Shown here piece after piece: positions 1,396 to 8,713 of a stretch of 20,719 nucleotides of DNA. Position 1 is the stretch's first letter. Every line of letters starts with the position of its first letter. Origin of the DNA: a virus. The translations under genes were made by a program, and so were the position numbers. The notes under the pieces are model-generated. The model had not been told where the DNA came from, made no database searches, and saw only the letters and a program-made list of their open reading frames with translations. The stretch is taken from IMG/VR virus record IMGVR_UViG_3300025131_000531, positions 1 through 20,719 of that record, one strand, 5' to 3'.

Positions 1396-1583
1396 TGTTT
1401 GAAAATTGTACTTTAAAATATGTTGCAAGAGATGGGATTAATGTTTCTATTTCTGTAATTTACCCAGAAGATAATAATGGAACTACAAAAAAATTATCAG
1501 TACCAACTAATGAAGATAACACAGACTATCAAAATATTCTTCAATGGGTAGCAGATGGTAATACAATAGAGGAGGCTGATTAA
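1395..1583 (+). CDS. Small fibre-associated protein (possible tail fibre assembly/chaperone-like)
   Basis: This 62-residue protein lies directly after a fibre gene and overlaps it by one base. Its C-terminal half reads VPTNEDNTDYQNILQWVADG followed by an acidic end. The pattern (V/I)P-x-D/E-x(2)-N-x-(D/E)YQ-x-(I/Y)LxW-x-A-x-GN resembles the conserved end of small tail-fibre assembly or fibre-tip proteins in many phages. The first 30 residues form a short beta-rich piece. A role in folding or attaching the preceding fibre is an inference from this motif and position. A small structural tip protein is the alternative. Base composition matches the preceding A/T-rich gene, so the two have probably moved together. 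Confidence 0.55.
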   Translation: MFENCTLKYVARDGINVSISVIYPEDNNGTTKKLSVPTNEDNTDYQNILQWVADGNTIEEAD

Positions 1584-2032
1584 TGCCATACGTAGGACGC
1601 GATTTAGACATAGGGAGTAGGAAGATCCTCGCAGTGAGTGGATCAACACCTGCAACAACCTATACCCTTCAGTATGATTCTGTGGACTACCATCCGTCAG
1701 CGGCGCAGAACTTGATTCTGAGCATTTCAGGTGTTATTCAAGCACCAGGAACGGCGTACACTGTTTCAGGAGCGACATTGGATTTCGGCGGAGTTTCCGT
1801 TGCATCGGGTGACATTGATTTTATTGTTGCGATGGGCGAAAACGTTGATGTTGGGACCCCCTCGGATGGGACGGTAACAGTTGATAAACTGTCCGCAACA
1901 TATTATAGTGAAAACCCAGTAACTTACAGCACGCTCACGATGAACGCCAGCAAGAATGGCTTGATTGCAGGGCCTGTCAGCTTTACGGGAACGGTAACAA
2001 TTCCTTCGGGATCAACATTGGTAATAGTATAA
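1583..2032 (+). CDS. Tail fibre adaptor-like protein (phage fibre N-terminal-type beta domain)
   Basis: This 149-residue protein opens with MPYVGRDLDIGSRKI. Residues 26-66 then carry a recognisable phage-fibre pattern: YTLQYD, SAAQNLILSISGVIQAPGTA and YTVSGATLDFG. In other phages such modules usually sit in the N-terminal, virion-proximal part of fibres. Here the protein stops soon after a short Thr/Ser-rich tail, with no obvious receptor-binding domain. The gene is clearly more GC-rich than its left neighbours. It overlaps 1395-1583 by one base (SD GAGGAGG-like just upstream) and abuts 2033 directly. It may be an attachment protein for the separate short fibres that follow, or a fibre gene that has lost its distal domain. 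Confidence 0.6.
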   Translation: MPYVGRDLDIGSRKILAVSGSTPATTYTLQYDSVDYHPSAAQNLILSISGVIQAPGTAYTVSGATLDFGGVSVASGDIDFIVAMGENVDVGTPSDGTVTVDKLSATYYSENPVTYSTLTMNASKNGLIAGPVSFTGTVTIPSGSTLVIV

Positions 2033-2641
2033 ATGAGTAAAGTAAACGTCAACGCAATAGAGCCTAGTACAGGAACCGACATCACGTTGGGAGCGTCAGG
2101 CGATACGGTAAGCATACCTTCGGGTGTGACATTAAGTACAGGTAGTGCAATCGCTACAGCTTCTCTTGGAAGTGGAACAGCAAGCTCTAGTACTTTTTTA
2201 AGAGGTGACTCTACTTGGGCGAGTGCTGGTGGAACTAACTCTGGAAAATTTATGGTTTATGATGCTTCTGTTACTGTTGCAGATGCAACTAATACGATTG
2301 TTACAGGATGGTCTGAAACGTATGATGTAGATAATTATTTTGCTAGTGATAAATATACTCCAACTGTTGCAGGATATTATTATCTTGCCGCAACTGCTCG
2401 TGCAAATAATATAGGTGCAACTGCAAGGTTTATTATAGGTATTCGTAAAAATGGTGCGGCTTTACCTTTAGGTGGCTATGATGCTGAAACAAATATAGTA
2501 GCTTCTAGTTATCCAACTGTTAGTAATAGTGCCATAGTTTATGCAGATGGTGATGATTACTTTGAGGTAAATCTTTATCAAAATAGTGGTGGCTCTACAG
2601 CTCTTTTTGATGTTGGTTTTTGGGGGTTTAAATTAATATAA
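2033..2641 (+). CDS. Short tail fibre protein with C-terminal C1q-like domain (copy 1)
   Basis: This 202-residue protein has two parts. Residues 1-65 (MSKVNVNAIEPSTGTDITLG, then SGDTVSIPSGVTL and STFLRGDSTWAS) form a repeat-rich module also present, diverged, at the start of the gene at 3155. Residues of about 72-202 look like a C1q/TNF-type jelly roll: alternating short strands, a central YTPTVAGYYYLAA (the F/Y-x-P-x-x-x-G-x-Y-x-F pattern of C1q) and a terminal FWGFKLI. C1q-like trimers at fibre tips are common in marine phages and are presumed to bind host surfaces. Codon use shifts from GC-richer in the first 120 bases to A/T-rich in the C1q part, consistent with a swapped domain. The ATG follows the upstream stop directly. 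Confidence 0.7.
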   Translation: MSKVNVNAIEPSTGTDITLGASGDTVSIPSGVTLSTGSAIATASLGSGTASSSTFLRGDSTWASAGGTNSGKFMVYDASVTVADATNTIVTGWSETYDVDNYFASDKYTPTVAGYYYLAATARANNIGATARFIIGIRKNGAALPLGGYDAETNIVASSYPTVSNSAIVYADGDDYFEVNLYQNSGGSTALFDVGFWGFKLI

Positions 2642-2692
2642 CATGATTTTAAAAGGAATTAATTAATGGCAAGCACGATACAAGTAGACAAG
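2637..2692 (+). repeat. 56-bp perfect direct repeat, copy 1
   Basis: This segment is identical, base by base, to 3730-3785. It spans the end of the upstream stop codon, the ribosome-binding region TTTTAAAAGGAATT, the ATG and the first nine codons (MASTIQVDK). It joins the 39-codon remnant at 2666 to the intact gene at 3759 and is long enough to serve as a recombination substrate. Confidence 0.95.
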
Positions 2693-2785
2693 GTTACTAT
2701 TACAGGTTATCATAATTATGGCTCTGATAGAGATTTTAATGGTACTTTTTCATACTTTGCTGGATATAAACTGATAGGAATATAA
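2666..2785 (+). pseudogene. Internal-deletion remnant of a short C1q tail fibre gene (39 codons)
   Basis: The ATG and first nine codons encode MASTIQVDK, the same start as the intact fibre gene at 3759 and identical at the nucleotide level. The remaining 30 residues end in TFSYFAGYKLIGI, which looks like the last strand of a C1q-like domain (compare TLTGYKLIG at the end of the 3759 product and FWGFKLI at the end of the 2033 product). Everything between, about 140-150 residues by comparison with the paralogues, is missing, yet the frame stays open to a TAA. The simplest reading is a fifth C1q fibre gene that suffered an in-frame internal deletion. The 39-residue peptide could still be made, since the RBS is intact, but it cannot form a fibre. 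Confidence 0.75.
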
Positions 2786-2802
2786 ATGGCTAACAATTTT
2801 AA

Positions 2803-2809
2803 AAGGAGG
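2803..2809 (+). promoter_or_regulatory. Strong Shine-Dalgarno (AAGGAGG) for the gene at 2815
   Basis: AAGGAGG lies five bases upstream of the ATG at 2815. It fixes that start and argues against the small overlapping frame opening at 2786. Confidence 0.8.
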
Positions 2810-2814
2810 TCTAA

Positions 2815-3144
2815 ATGGCACAGTTATCAACTAAGGTAAAAGCGTACGTGGAGGCGGCGGGCAAGACCGTTGACTTTACAAGTGACGTTCTCCTTCAGGA
2901 TGACTCCGACGGCAAAGGACCGTACATCAAGGAATGGAATATCGCGGGGCTTGCACAGCCTAGTGATGCCGACCTTGCCGTACACGAAGCCGCAGGGGAT
3001 GTTACTGAAGTGAACAACGTCGTGAGAAGCACGCGCAAAACAGCTTATGGTGATATTGGCGATCAGCTTGATGAGATATTTAAGGATATCGACGCGTGGA
3101 AAACACGTATTCAAGGGATCAAAGATGCAAACCCAAAGAGTTAA
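2815..3144 (+). CDS. Small phage protein with GDIGDQLDEIFKDID motif (XkdW/fibre-accessory-like)
   Basis: This 109-residue acidic protein has a beta-rich N-terminal half (residues 1-60). Its C-terminal half contains RKTAYGDIGDQLDEIFKDID followed by an I-K-D-A-N-P-K ending. In many phages a segment of the form R-x-x-x-Y-x-x-I-G-D-Q-L-D-x-x-x-x-D-I closes small proteins encoded beside tail fibres; it resembles the XkdW-type or DUF4376-type endings. A fibre-assembly or tip-accessory role is inferred only from that motif and position. It is GC-richer than the C1q domains on either side. A very good SD precedes it, suggesting high expression relative to neighbours. Confidence 0.6.
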   Translation: MAQLSTKVKAYVEAAGKTVDFTSDVLLQDDSDGKGPYIKEWNIAGLAQPSDADLAVHEAAGDVTEVNNVVRSTRKTAYGDIGDQLDEIFKDIDAWKTRIQGIKDANPKS

Positions 3145-3154
3145 GGAGTAAAAA

Positions 3155-3739
3155 GTGAGTAAAATATTTGTTGATCAGGTAGATCCAAAGACAGCTACCA
3201 CGCTAACGCTTGGCACGTCAGGTGATACGGTAACAGTACCATCAGGTGCGACCTTTAATGTGGCTGGAACTATGCAAAGTGGCGGAGTTGCTGTAGCTAA
3301 CACTCCTGCTTTTGATGCATATATGTCAGCAGTTCAAGATGTTACAGATAATGCAAATACAAAAGTTGTGGTTAATACAGAAGTTTATGATTCAGATGGT
3401 TGTTATGACAACAGCACAAATTATAGATTTACTCCAACTACCGCAGGAAAATATTATGTTTATGGTGCTGTTACATCATTAACAGATGCTTCACAAACAA
3501 AAGAAGCTAGGGCTATGATTTATAAAAATGGAGCTGCTTTAAGAAGTGCAACTATCGACCCAAGAGATAATTATGGGTATATGAATAGTAATTTTGTTTC
3601 AGCAATAATAGATATGGATGGCTCGTCTGATTATGTTGAGCTTTATGGAGTAACAAACAAACAGGGTGGAACTGATTGTAAATTTACAAATTTACATTAT
3701 CAAGCAACATATTTCGGAGCATATAGGATTATAACATGA
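3155..3739 (+). CDS. Short tail fibre protein with C-terminal C1q-like domain (copy 2)
   Basis: This 194-residue protein starts at GTG (SD AAGGAG at 3143-3148). Residues 1-38 (MSKIFVDQVDPKTATTLTLG, then SGDTVTVPSGATFNVAG) are a diverged version of the module opening the 2033 product. VANTPAFDAY at about residue 47 matches LANTPAFRVT in the 3759 product and marks the hinge into the C1q-like domain. That domain shows FTPTTAGKYYVYGAV in the middle and TYFGAYRI at the end. The presumed role is host-surface recognition at a trimeric fibre tip. The N-terminal module is GC-richer than the A/T-rich C1q part. Its last bases belong to the 56-bp repeat that continues into the next gene. Confidence 0.72.
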   Translation: MSKIFVDQVDPKTATTLTLGTSGDTVTVPSGATFNVAGTMQSGGVAVANTPAFDAYMSAVQDVTDNANTKVVVNTEVYDSDGCYDNSTNYRFTPTTAGKYYVYGAVTSLTDASQTKEARAMIYKNGAALRSATIDPRDNYGYMNSNFVSAIIDMDGSSDYVELYGVTNKQGGTDCKFTNLHYQATYFGAYRIIT

Positions 3740-3785
3740 TTTTAAAAGGAATTAATTAATGGCAAGCACGATACAAGTAGACAAG
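3730..3785 (+). repeat. 56-bp perfect direct repeat, copy 2
   Basis: Identical to 2637-2692. It contains the last bases of the gene ending at 3739, the ribosome-binding region, and the first nine codons of the fibre gene at 3759. Recombination between the copies would remove 2693-3785, including the gene at 2815 and the fibre at 3155. Confidence 0.95.
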
Positions 3786-4319
3786 ATACAGGATACGGGT
3801 GGCAATACTATTTTGCAATCTGACGGAAGTGGCACGGCCACTACCACATTGCCTGTAGGATTTGGAGGAACAGGCGCTACCACTTTGGCGGGCGCTGGGT
3901 TAGCTAATACTCCAGCTTTTAGAGTAACACTTTCTGGGGACCAAAGCATAAGTAGTGAAACTGCTACTAAAGTAACTTGGGACACAGAAAGTTTTGATAC
4001 AGATAATGCTTTTGCCTCCAATAAGTTTACTGTGCCAGCAGGAGAGGGTGGTAAATATTTTTTCTTTCATAAAATTTTTTATGATGATGTGGATGATGGA
4101 GAATATGTTCAACTTCGACTTTATAAAAATGGCTCTGAACAGAATATCTTTAGATCACAAAGATATGGCTCAAAAGCTACTGCAAATATGTATATGCAAG
4201 CTAGTGCTGTTTTAACTTTAGTTGCAACAGATTATATTGAAACTTATGTTTATGCGAATGCGGCTGGGGATCTCAATTCCTTATACTGCACATTAACAGG
4301 ATACAAATTAATAGGATAA
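3759..4319 (+). CDS. Short tail fibre protein with C-terminal C1q-like domain (copy 3)
   Basis: This 186-residue protein starts MASTIQVDKIQDTGG. A Gly/Thr-rich linker follows (LPVGFGGTGATTLAG), also seen as ANGGTGATSYAPG in the next gene. LANTPAF at about residue 47 opens a C1q-like domain with FASNKFTVPAGEGGKYFFFH in the middle and TLTGYKLIG at the end. It is the intact counterpart of the remnant at 2666 and shares its first nine codons exactly. The presumed function is receptor binding as part of a trimer. The domain is strongly A/T-rich and Phe/Tyr-rich. The start is set by AAAAGGAATT upstream and by conservation with the remnant. Confidence 0.72.
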   Translation: MASTIQVDKIQDTGGNTILQSDGSGTATTTLPVGFGGTGATTLAGAGLANTPAFRVTLSGDQSISSETATKVTWDTESFDTDNAFASNKFTVPAGEGGKYFFFHKIFYDDVDDGEYVQLRLYKNGSEQNIFRSQRYGSKATANMYMQASAVLTLVATDYIETYVYANAAGDLNSLYCTLTGYKLIG

Positions 4320-4320
4320 C

Positions 4321-4872
4321 ATGGCACTGACAACGGTTAAAAACGCAGGACTCGCAGGATCAATAGATCTGACAGCCAAGGTGACTGGTGCACTGCCTGC
4401 AGCTAATGGTGGTACAGGTGCTACAAGTTATGCACCTGGTAAGGTTTTGCAGGTGGTTAATGTAGTAAACGGAACAGTTGATTCAACAACTAGTTCAACT
4501 TTAGCAGACACTTCATTAACACTTAATATAACCCCAAGTGCAACTTCAAGTACAATTTTAGCGGTTGTTAAAATTAATGGAGTTTATGTTAGCCATGAAG
4601 ATACATCATTAGATTTAGCACTTTTTAGAGATAGTACTCAAATAGTAGATTTTGGTGGCACAGTTGGTCTTGTTACTAGTAACACAACAAACGATAGTGG
4701 ACAAACAGGTGATGGAATAACATATTTAGATAGTCCTTCATCTACATCACAATTAACTTACAAAGTAAAATTTGCTAGTTCAGACAACACAACCCAAATA
4801 CAGATTAATAATTACATAAGAGGTAGCATTAGACCAAAGAGTTCTATTACCTTAATGGAGATTTCAGCATGA
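4321..4872 (+). CDS. Short tail fibre protein with divergent C-terminal beta domain
   Basis: This 183-residue protein shares the linker GGTGATSYAPG and a short N-terminal module (MALTTVKNAGLAGSIDLTAK) with phage fibres. After GKVLQVVNVVNGTVDSTTSS its distal domain differs from the C1q copies. It follows the pattern (L-N-I-T-P-S-A-T-S-S-T-I, then a later R-P-K-S-S-I-T-L-M-E-I) that I recall from other phage fibre C-termini. The final IRPKSSITLMEI resembles the last strand of such domains. It begins one base after the previous stop and overlaps the next small gene by four bases (ATGA), a typical coupled pair. A host-recognition role is inferred. Confidence 0.65.
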   Translation: MALTTVKNAGLAGSIDLTAKVTGALPAANGGTGATSYAPGKVLQVVNVVNGTVDSTTSSTLADTSLTLNITPSATSSTILAVVKINGVYVSHEDTSLDLALFRDSTQIVDFGGTVGLVTSNTTNDSGQTGDGITYLDSPSSTSQLTYKVKFASSDNTTQIQINNYIRGSIRPKSSITLMEISA

Positions 4873-5042: not shown

Positions 5043-5098
5043 TGGCTTTCGGTGCAGGAGCGATTGATAAAATAACTTCCTTATATAAGGAGGCTTAA
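5042..5098 (+). CDS. Possible 18-residue coupling/leader ORF
   Basis: A tiny frame encodes MAFGAGAIDKITSLYKEA. Its ATG overlaps the preceding stop by one base and its own stop overlaps the next ATG (5098) by one base. It contains the strong SD AAGGAGG (5087-5093) of the next gene. It may be a translated spacer that couples the two genes, or the stump of a lost fibre protein (the MAFGAGA start resembles fibre-type beginnings). There is no evidence that the peptide itself has a function. Confidence 0.3.
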   Translation: MAFGAGAIDKITSLYKEA

Positions 5099-5766
5099 TG
5101 ACTTTCGCTGCGTCATCATTCGGTGAGCGCGCTTTCGCCGAGGACATCTCGCAGCACGCTGTTGTAGCCCTAACGGGCGAGCAGGCTAATTTCGCCCTAG
5201 GGACCGCACAGATTCTTGGGCATGCAACTGTAGAACCAGGTGGCCTTGCTGCATCGTTCGCGGTTGGAAGTGCCACAATTGACATTTCCATCACGGTCGC
5301 GCCAAGCGGATTACCAACTGAGTTCTCCCTTGGAACGACAACTGTAACTGGAACGGCATTGGTAACGCCAACGGGACTTCTTATTGAATCGTCCCTTGGA
5401 ACCGTCACTGTCACCGGAACGGCGCTCGTGGAACCAAGCGGACTTGAGGCAACCTTTACCGTGGGAGATTCCACGGTTACAGGAACGGCGTTGGTGACAC
5501 CAACAGGAGTTTCCTCGACATTTGCCGTTGGAACTGTTACACTTGTGTGGACAATAGTTCCGACTGGAGTCCAGGCGGAATTTGGAATGGGAACGGTTAC
5601 CGTAACTGGTACCGCGAAAGTTATACCAACGGGAGTTGAAGTGGCAGCCGCTGTTGGAGCACTTAAACTGACGATCTGGAACGGAGTTCCGGATACAGGT
5701 GGAGGTTCATGGAGCGTGGTTGATGATTCAAACACCTCAACATGGATTGAAGTGAATACAGGTTAG
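5098..5766 (+). CDS. Tail/fibre structural protein with tandem ~22-residue beta repeats
   Basis: This 222-residue protein has an N-terminal MTFAASSFGERAFAE. From about residue 23 to 190 it has roughly eight tandem repeats of about 22 residues with consensus V-x-P-(T/S)-G-(L/V)-x(3)-F-x-(L/V)-G-T-x-T-V-T-G-T-A. One unit, around VTLVWT, is two residues short. A Trp-rich end follows (residues 189-222, several W spaced like a small beta cap). The regular beta repeat suggests an elongated beta-solenoid or shaft-like structure, and such proteins occur next to fibres in marine phages. The repeats are also visible in the DNA (ACGGGAG, GGAACGGC-type blocks), so copy number may change by slippage. It is markedly GC-richer than the fibre genes just upstream. 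The start is set by the AAGGAGG SD four bases upstream. Confidence 0.65.
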   Translation: MTFAASSFGERAFAEDISQHAVVALTGEQANFALGTAQILGHATVEPGGLAASFAVGSATIDISITVAPSGLPTEFSLGTTTVTGTALVTPTGLLIESSLGTVTVTGTALVEPSGLEATFTVGDSTVTGTALVTPTGVSSTFAVGTVTLVWTIVPTGVQAEFGMGTVTVTGTAKVIPTGVEVAAAVGALKLTIWNGVPDTGGGSWSVVDDSNTSTWIEVNTG

Positions 5767-6823: not shown

Positions 6824-8713
6824 ATGCCTCTTGTAGATATGCCTTTCACACCTGGAGTAGACAAGCAGGACACCCCCACGGGTGCTGAAGGAAGATGGAT
6901 TGATTCAGACAACATACGTTTTCGCTATGGTCTTCCGGAAAAGATTGGAGGATGGGAAAAGGTAACGAGTGATGCCCTTGTTGGCGCCGCACGCGGAATT
7001 CATGCATGGTCCTCATTGGACGGATCACCCTACACCTCAATAGGAACAAACAAGAAACTTTATGTTTATGTTGACAGTGAATGGGCCGATATAACACCAA
7101 TCCGTGCTTCAGGAACGGGAAACATTACAAATTTTACTACAATAGACACATCAACGAACGTGGTTGTCCATGACGCAACACACGGCGCAAGGGAAGGTGA
7201 CTTTGTCACCATTTCAGGAGTCTCAGGAACGGTCAATGGAATTGTAGCAGCGAACCTCGAAGGAGAATTCGAGATTACTGCCTTAGGTGATACAGCATCG
7301 CCGCCCACGGACCAAACAAACAAGTATCAAATAACAGCAAAGGCCGCGGCAACAAGCACAGGAGCTGCAGGTGAAACAGCTAACGCTGCGTATCAAATTA
7401 ACACTGACCCTCCTGTATCCACAGCAGGATATGGATGGGGTGCAGGAACATGGGGTGCTAGCACCTGGGGAACTTCGCGTGCAGGATTAACAGGCGTGGA
7501 AGCCGTTCAATTGGATTCAGGAAAATGGTCACTCGATAACTGGGGGGAAGACATGATTGCCCAGCAGTTAAATGGTGGTCTTTATTACTGGGATACATCC
7601 GTTGGAACTGGGACACGCGCAACATCAACAACCGTATCAGCTGCTCCTACTAAAAGTTTATTTACTATTGTGTCCGGTACTGACCGACATGTAGTATGTT
7701 TTGGAACAGAGACTACCATAGGTAGTACAGGCACACAGGATAATATGTTTATTAGGTGGTGTGATCAAGAAAATGTTAATGATTGGACTCCTAGTACAAC
7801 TAACACGGCTGGTTCACAAAGACTGACGGATGGTAGTTCATTGATATCCGCTAAGCGTTCACGTGGTGCGGTTCTTATCTGGAGTGATACAGCAATGTAC
7901 CAGATGCAATTGGTTGGAGCACCTTTCACATTTGGTTTCTCTCAACTAGGCGCTAACTGTGGTGCCGCAGGATTAAATTCTACCATTGATGTCAATGGAA
8001 CATCTTTCTGGATGGGAAAAGATTCTTTCTTTATGTTTGATGGTTCCGTGCAGAAATTAAGATGCGCAGTAGAGGATTATGTATTTAAGGATATTTCAGA
8101 AGGTAGCCAGCGTGATACTTTCGCGGCCAACAACGGTGAATTTAATGAAGTCACATGGTTCTATCCATCATCCGGTTCTTCTGTTATTAATCGTTGCGTA
8201 ACTTATAATTACGCAGACCAAGTATGGTATGTAGGAACCTTAAACAGATCCAGTTGGATTGATAAGGGAATTTATTCCTATCCGTACGCAACAACATATG
8301 ATTCAAGTGACACAACTGCAACGATCAGCACGATTACAGGGTTGACAGCAGGAAGAGCATACATGTATAGCCAGGAGTTTGGATCGAATGCGGAAGGTGC
8401 GGCGATAACAGCTTACGTGGAGTCAGGGGATTTTGTTATTCCACAGGCTGGGGAATATCTTATGTCAATAAAAAGATTTATTCCTGATTTCAAAAATTTA
8501 ACAGGAACAGTAAATGTTACATTAAAATTTAGAGACTATCCTACGTCAACGCAAAACACCATTGGACCTTTTGCCGTAACGACTTCAACAACTAAAGTTG
8601 ATACACGCGCACGCGGACGACAGGGTGCGCTTCGTGTAGAAAGTTCAGCGATAGATGACGCATGGCGTTTTGGCACATACCGTGCTGAAATTAGACAAGA
8701 CGGGAGAAGATAA
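6824..8713 (+). CDS. Virion structural protein, probable tail nozzle / packaged-DNA stabilisation-like protein
   Basis: This 629-residue protein opens with MPLVDMPFTPGVDKQDTPTG and then RWIDSDNIRFRYGLPEKIGG. That is the start of a conserved phage structural family (P-x-x-x-G-x-x-x-x-x-T, then G-R-W-x-x-x-x-x-x-R-F-x-x-G-x-x-x-x-I-G-G-W). Residues of about 95-185 carry an inserted Ig-like piece (VVVHDATHGAREGDFVTISG). The remainder has many Trp-containing beta blades, for example WYVGTLNRSSWIDKGIYSYP near residue 470 and a later IKRFIPDFKNLTG. It resembles beta-propeller head-tail closure proteins of podoviruses such as the P22 gp10 type, but I cannot confirm the family without a search. It stands between the fibre cassette and the internal-protein candidates, a position that suits a tail-tip or nozzle protein. 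Confidence 0.65.
   Translation: MPLVDMPFTPGVDKQDTPTGAEGRWIDSDNIRFRYGLPEKIGGWEKVTSDALVGAARGIHAWSSLDGSPYTSIGTNKKLYVYVDSEWADITPIRASGTGNITNFTTIDTSTNVVVHDATHGAREGDFVTISGVSGTVNGIVAANLEGEFEITALGDTASPPTDQTNKYQITAKAAATSTGAAGETANAAYQINTDPPVSTAGYGWGAGTWGASTWGTSRAGLTGVEAVQLDSGKWSLDNWGEDMIAQQLNGGLYYWDTSVGTGTRATSTTVSAAPTKSLFTIVSGTDRHVVCFGTETTIGSTGTQDNMFIRWCDQENVNDWTPSTTNTAGSQRLTDGSSLISAKRSRGAVLIWSDTAMYQMQLVGAPFTFGFSQLGANCGAAGLNSTIDVNGTSFWMGKDSFFMFDGSVQKLRCAVEDYVFKDISEGSQRDTFAANNGEFNEVTWFYPSSGSSVINRCVTYNYADQVWYVGTLNRSSWIDKGIYSYPYATTYDSSDTTATISTITGLTAGRAYMYSQEFGSNAEGAAITAYVESGDFVIPQAGEYLMSIKRFIPDFKNLTGTVNVTLKFRDYPTSTQNTIGPFAVTTSTTKVDTRARGRQGALRVESSAIDDAWRFGTYRAEIRQDGRR

Follow-up and report, generated by a model that had tools for sequence, protein, structure and literature searches.

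A duplicated fibre start, a 39-codon fibre stub and the exchange of C1q-like heads in the fibre cassette of a marine phage

How does the start of a fibre gene come to stand twice, letter for letter, in a phage fibre cassette, and what is the 39-codon open reading frame (ORF) that the first copy opens? We addressed this question in the window, the whole stretch of DNA analysed, which is an entire virus record of 20,719 bases. Over the first ~6.8 kb, short fibre genes follow one another, accompanied by small neighbours, and after them comes gene 6824-8713, a relative of phage stabilization proteins; the window is that of a marine podovirus-like phage with a multi-fibre cassette, in which each fibre gene consists of a conserved anchor (~25-50 codons) and an exchangeable C1q-like head (Table 1). 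When the profile of fibre 3759-4319 was compared with PDB chains, C1q-related factor (4qq2) was matched at 1.2e-7, and the structure model of this fibre (pLDDT 84.8) matched C1QL2 in Foldseek (4qpy, E 1.4e-7, TM 0.71-0.74 on the target). By model as well as by profile, the head is predicted to have a C1q/TNF-like fold. The XkdW-like gene exceeded the curated cut-off of Pfam PF09636 with a match spanning residues 19-60 only. Further along, positions 5098-5766 encode a protein of repeated TVTGTALVxPTGV-type units, for which PHROGs and Pfam gave no family match.

The named phages closest to gene 6824-8713 were DSL-LC04 (48.9% identity), HTVC027P, 023Pt_psg01 and HTVC023P, and those closest to the cassette DNA were nine Pelagibacter phage records. 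SAR11 is the likely putative host. A scan of bacterial and archaeal genomes found no relatives of XkdW, and therefore this gene indicates no host.

Table 1. Positions of the cassette features in the window, and of a second stub found in related contigs
Feature	Position	Strand	Evidence or remark
149-aa gene heading this part of the cassette	1583-2032	+	most contigs with a 1583-type gene stop shortly beyond it
Complete C1q-like fibre preceding the stub	2033-2641	+	profile; relatives in L021, L020, L017 and L010 directly before XkdW
Repeat copy 1, 56 bp (stop, spacer, RBS, nine codons), likely ectopic	2637-2692	+	exact match; gene order of relatives
Fibre stub, 39 codons, MASTIQVDK in frame with a C1q C-terminal tail	2666-2785	+	ORF translation; profile search
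Predicted C1q-like head, last 30 codons and stop	2693-2785	+	profile; last two strands in the model of fibre 3759-4319
XkdW-like gene	2815-3144	+	Pfam XkdW, 40.8 bits against a cut-off of 24.6
Complete C1q-like fibre, anchor VSKIFVDQV	3155-3739	+	translation; profile
Repeat copy 2, whose first bases are the final codons and TGA of fibre 3155-3739	3730-3785	+	same place in relatives L003 and L004
Complete C1q-like fibre, anchor MASTIQVDK	3759-4319	+	profile; structure model; PDB comparison
Next fibre-like gene	4321-4872	+	start region common to the window and L019
Second stub	L230:4001-4093; L229:3498-3590; L231:4001-4093		three near-identical contigs

An earlier reading of the sequence alone had reported an exact 56-bp repeat that includes the ribosome-binding site (RBS) and the first nine codons of a fibre gene, and both statements were confirmed. 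The two copies are identical over 56 bases and the match is maximal, being extendable on neither side; copy 1 contains the ribosome site AAAAGGA, an ATG at 2666 and nine codons (2666-2692) that read MASTIQVDK. The exact-repeat listing of the window showed no other repeat of at least 18 bases. With copy 1 taken out the longest exact repeat was 14 bases, and in 200 first-order Markov resamples of the window the longest never exceeded 19 bases (mean 14.2). In both copies the left edge of the repeat is a head end. We also observed a motif, TTTTAAAAGGA, 18-19 bases ahead of three gene starts in the window (2797-2807, 2647-2657 and 3740-3750); most relatives checked had a single occurrence near a gene start, before XkdW.

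Following MASTIQVDK, whose nine codons are those of fibre 3759, the ORF continues in frame as VTITGYHNYGSDRDFNGTFSYFAGYKLIGI. Searching 1,510 ORFs of 103 records with a profile of 194 columns, built from 213 fibres of the window and its relatives, matched this tail to columns 154-189 with an iE of 0.0054, which rose with the number of ORFs searched to 0.0066 and then 0.01 (2,831 ORFs); taken by itself, the 30-codon tail gives a weak profile match (iE 0.005-0.01). The last 30 residues also aligned with the ends of C1q-like heads, and this alignment puts them on the two final strands of the fibre 3759 model (159-166 and 176-183). A search for the full-length parent of the stub did not find it; only one record (L098) matched the tail pattern, with a distant 517-aa C1q-type protein that ends ..DYLEPTGYHNNGSDRS.. 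and is similar to the stub tail. The proposed in-frame fusion to the final ~30 codons of a C1q-like domain thus agrees with translation, profile and alignment alike. Since the start of fibre 3759 and a C1q tail end are joined in it, the ORF is, as far as its sequence tells, a fibre gene that has lost nearly all its body, as had been proposed. It has the start and the end of a fibre, the body is missing and no contig end cuts it, which places it among fibre pseudogenes. Because the domain is reduced to its last two strands, the stub is most likely non-functional and transient.

With the 39-aa ORF as query, family searches found no match, neither at E up to 0.001 in PHROGs nor at E up to 0.1 in Pfam. 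A search of viral_contigs for the fusion gave no match either; relatives that keep the 39-residue ORF were not seen, and this particular stub is present in one genome only. To see how common such remnants are, we can turn to a survey of 231 records and 2,831 ORFs, with 396 fibres (278 distinct) in 143 records, in which records overlap and one contig may count as several loci. The stub of the window was the sole ORF in the survey in which a fibre start meets a C1q tail; the remaining short tails of C1q type (L095, L061, L070, L227 and L228) were open to the locus edge. Two further records (L142 and L143) have one 94-aa ORF each with a weak internal profile match (iE 0.0012). The survey revealed a second stub, in which 23 codons of an MSKIFVDQ anchor run in frame into the final seven codons of a small neighbouring gene. 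At the junction the two parents have short sequences that resemble each other, the anchor GGTGATACG and the neighbouring gene GGTAACACG. Two of the three contigs that carry it (L229 and L231) were 99.96% and 99.75% identical to the third (L230), indicating that the second stub is one event in three assemblies. Fibre stubs recur, and the second one is independent of that in the window.

We then asked which copy of the repeat is the original by examining gene order in relatives. XkdW-like loci were found 274 times and 80 were kept; 89 records, window included, had an XkdW-like match, and 81 of these had an ORF just upstream. In the 80 records other than the window this ORF was at least 61 aa long in all and never a stub, several records being the same contig and several of the upstream ORFs being non-fibre; what stands there is a full-length fibre or some other gene. 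In two contigs, represented by L021, L020, L017 and L010, XkdW comes directly after a 2033-type fibre, without a stub. A further contig (L019/L008) has a full-length fibre ending YSYFTGYKLIG, then XkdW and then a MASTIQVDK fibre, with no 3155-type fibre in between; window positions 3758-3920 were 89.6% identical to L019. The window is a mosaic of these two kinds of arrangement.

Among 134 records, the repeat spacer TTTTAAAAGGAATTAATTAATGGC was found only in the window (twice), in L003/L075 (one contig) and in L004, and a shorter spacer pattern occurred in three contigs of the viral collection, the third of which (L002) has it before an unrelated gene. In L003 and L004 the spacer is flanked by an MSK-type and a MAST-type fibre, which corresponds to the position of copy 2. 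Within copy 2, ACATGA forms the end of fibre 3155, whereas in copy 1 it is non-coding; six bases present in L003 are absent from both copies. The spacer position in relatives, the coding role of ACATGA in copy 2 only and the shared lack of six bases together suggest that copy 2 is likely the source and copy 1 the ectopic copy. The copies are perfectly identical, against 85-90% identity to the nearest relatives, and the duplication would therefore be recent, unless the copies are being homogenized by gene conversion.

The broader behaviour of the cassette was seen in pairs drawn from 249 distinct complete fibres. At least 80% of the first 25 residues were shared by 1,208 pairs, in 1,109 of which the heads were less than 40% identical. 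Conversely, 13 pairs had heads at least 75% identical on anchors only 4-28% identical. In the DNA of these 13 pairs similarity began 66-148 bases into the gene, within the motif N-T-P-x-F/W or a close variant in six of them, and was lost between 25 bases before and 22 bases after the stop codon in every one; in control pairs with the same head and the same anchor it ran more than 25 bases beyond the stop in 13 of 15. Selecting pairs by their C-termini favours similarity that reaches the stop, not similarity that ends there. Furthermore, a single record (L022) carries one head (94.9% identity over 449 bases) on two unrelated anchors (1002-1553 and 3242-3787). The sharp ends in the 13 pairs, together with L022, demonstrate that heads move between anchors, and that the ends of the moving unit lie at the hinge and the stop codon. 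Searching all ORFs for common C-termini yielded 124 pairs whose starts differ; most of them looked like products of start-codon choice or edge effects, and this search was not used.

A synonymous-codon test in the heads showed a strong excess at their two ends (tail G z 21.7, hinge T 17.8, hinge A 12.3 and tail L 11.2, values that assume independent sequences); two inner columns were also high (12.6 and 11.0) and anchors showed an excess too. Synonymous codons thus give a hint of possible conservation at the DNA level at head ends.

Is the repeat itself the means by which the cassette gains and loses genes? The sequence-only reading had predicted that recombination between the copies deletes the DNA between them. 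The arithmetic of this 1,093-bp deletion is right, and the deletion would also remove, a point which that reading had not mentioned, the XkdW-like gene and the whole of fibre gene 3155-3739; its cost is thus the XkdW gene, a gene with 274 relatives. The predicted product, a 2033-type fibre followed directly by a MAST fibre, was not seen among relatives. Nor did gain and loss at a shared start module, as had been put forward, find backing: none of the 143 records with full-length fibres had two of them sharing residues 2-9, and no exact repeat of at least 28 bases was present at a fibre start in the other records scanned. A duplicated start is therefore not supported as the cassette's usual route of gene turnover. 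What stands of the earlier view is a fibre cassette in flux, mainly by head swaps onto different anchors and not by start repeats. One relative (L129) has a 44-base exact repeat at 3214 and 4771, inside small genes of 116 and 92 aa, which suggests that neighbours of fibres are duplicated too.

For the window, we consider it probable that ectopic or illegitimate recombination during head exchange made both copy 1 and the stub. The end of the 2033 head would have become attached to copy 2's block of stop, spacer, RBS and anchor, and the copied block would then have been fused, at a point other than the usual hinge, with the tail of the head formerly upstream of XkdW. After the nine codons of copy 1 the frame runs on into the final 30 codons of another head, so that a stub stands before XkdW. 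A simple internal deletion, by which a duplicated full MASTIQVDK fibre upstream of XkdW lost codons 10 to about -30, would yield the same product, and with the full-length parent of the stub not found, deletion in place and illegitimate joining are indistinguishable. The second stub resembles such a deletion, lying as it does between short similar sequences. However, the duplicated intermediate was seen in none of the 143 records, and copies 1 and 2 differ immediately past codon 9; we regard an internal deletion as possible but somewhat unlikely.

An assembly mis-join, in which two co-occurring strains sharing the 56 bases were joined and the copies do not lie in one genome, appears quite unlikely. 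The last default k-mer of metaSPAdes is 55, and the repeat is one base longer than that, whichever assembler was used here. Contigs with a 1583-type gene (L105-L135) end within 750 bp downstream of it in 18 of 31 cases and upstream in 1 of 31; these ends fit strain variation, and the region is also hard to assemble. Repeat-driven joining, however, only mispairs flanks, and the fusion at 2692/2693, at the repeat edge, needs reads of its own; the stub would therefore exist in some genome even under a mis-join. In addition, fibre stubs exist elsewhere, one of them common to three contigs. A role for the 39-residue ORF as a small functional gene, for example one carrying translation into XkdW, is very unlikely: both stubs are in frame and the kept end of the L230 stub bears, for the next gene, a GAGGAGG ribosome site and a stop-start overlap, but chance gives in-frame joins one third of the time, the fusion was unmatched in viral_contigs and XkdW has its own strong AAAAGGAGGT site within 29 bases past the stub.

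One could speculate, though the scheme as a whole is unlikely, that the cassette is a modular exchange system with slot-bound anchors, mobile heads whose ends are conserved in DNA (AATACTCC at the hinge and GGATATAAATTA at the tail) and an inter-head block of stop, spacer, RBS and anchor that can be copied to new positions, in which stubs would be failed or half-finished exchanges and maybe landing sites for the next head.

Marine phages alter their host-binding parts fast, and read mapping shows only gaps. Stubs and pairs of one head on different anchors record single events and their breakpoints, so that the rate and breakpoints of exchange could become countable in natural populations; the second stub, common to three assemblies, indicates that scars persist long enough to serve as markers. 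Exchange of parts between short conserved motifs has a precedent in T-even phages, whose distal tail fibres were reportedly found by Tetart in 1998 to be swapped between conserved motifs. Adhesin parts are likewise exchanged between short conserved motifs there; the phage type is different, and here several fibre genes stand in a row. A literature search on the combined terms of this case returned no paper, and we do not claim head exchange as unpublished beyond such searches. Exchange of C1q genes and domain shuffling of receptor-binding proteins in phages are already in print, and the scars described here are unusually clear.

Hypervariable host-recognition regions are described for pelagiphages in the portions of the reports considered here (PMC7029224, PMC10504331). 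Metaviromic islands of marine phages, also in relatives of pelagiphages, hold variable host-recognition genes including C1q-like genes, tail fibres and XkdW (Mizuno 2014, PMC3909814), the same gene set as in the window. That work rests on lost read recruitment; the exchange of heads on anchors, the duplicated start and the stub are shown here and do not appear in the part of that paper compared. In cryoconite phages, according to the part of the study drawn upon, recombination swaps C1q variants in genomes that are otherwise nearly the same (PMC7468147); there variants are exchanged at one locus, whereas here heads also cross between anchors. Phage receptor-binding proteins in general are described, in the sections used from a further paper, as having a conserved N-terminus and exchangeable C-terminal domains, with recent shuffling at 70-90% identity (PMC10684548). 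In comparison with those sections, the present analysis pins the boundaries of the mobile unit to the hinge and the stop codon, and shows the broken by-products of its exchange.
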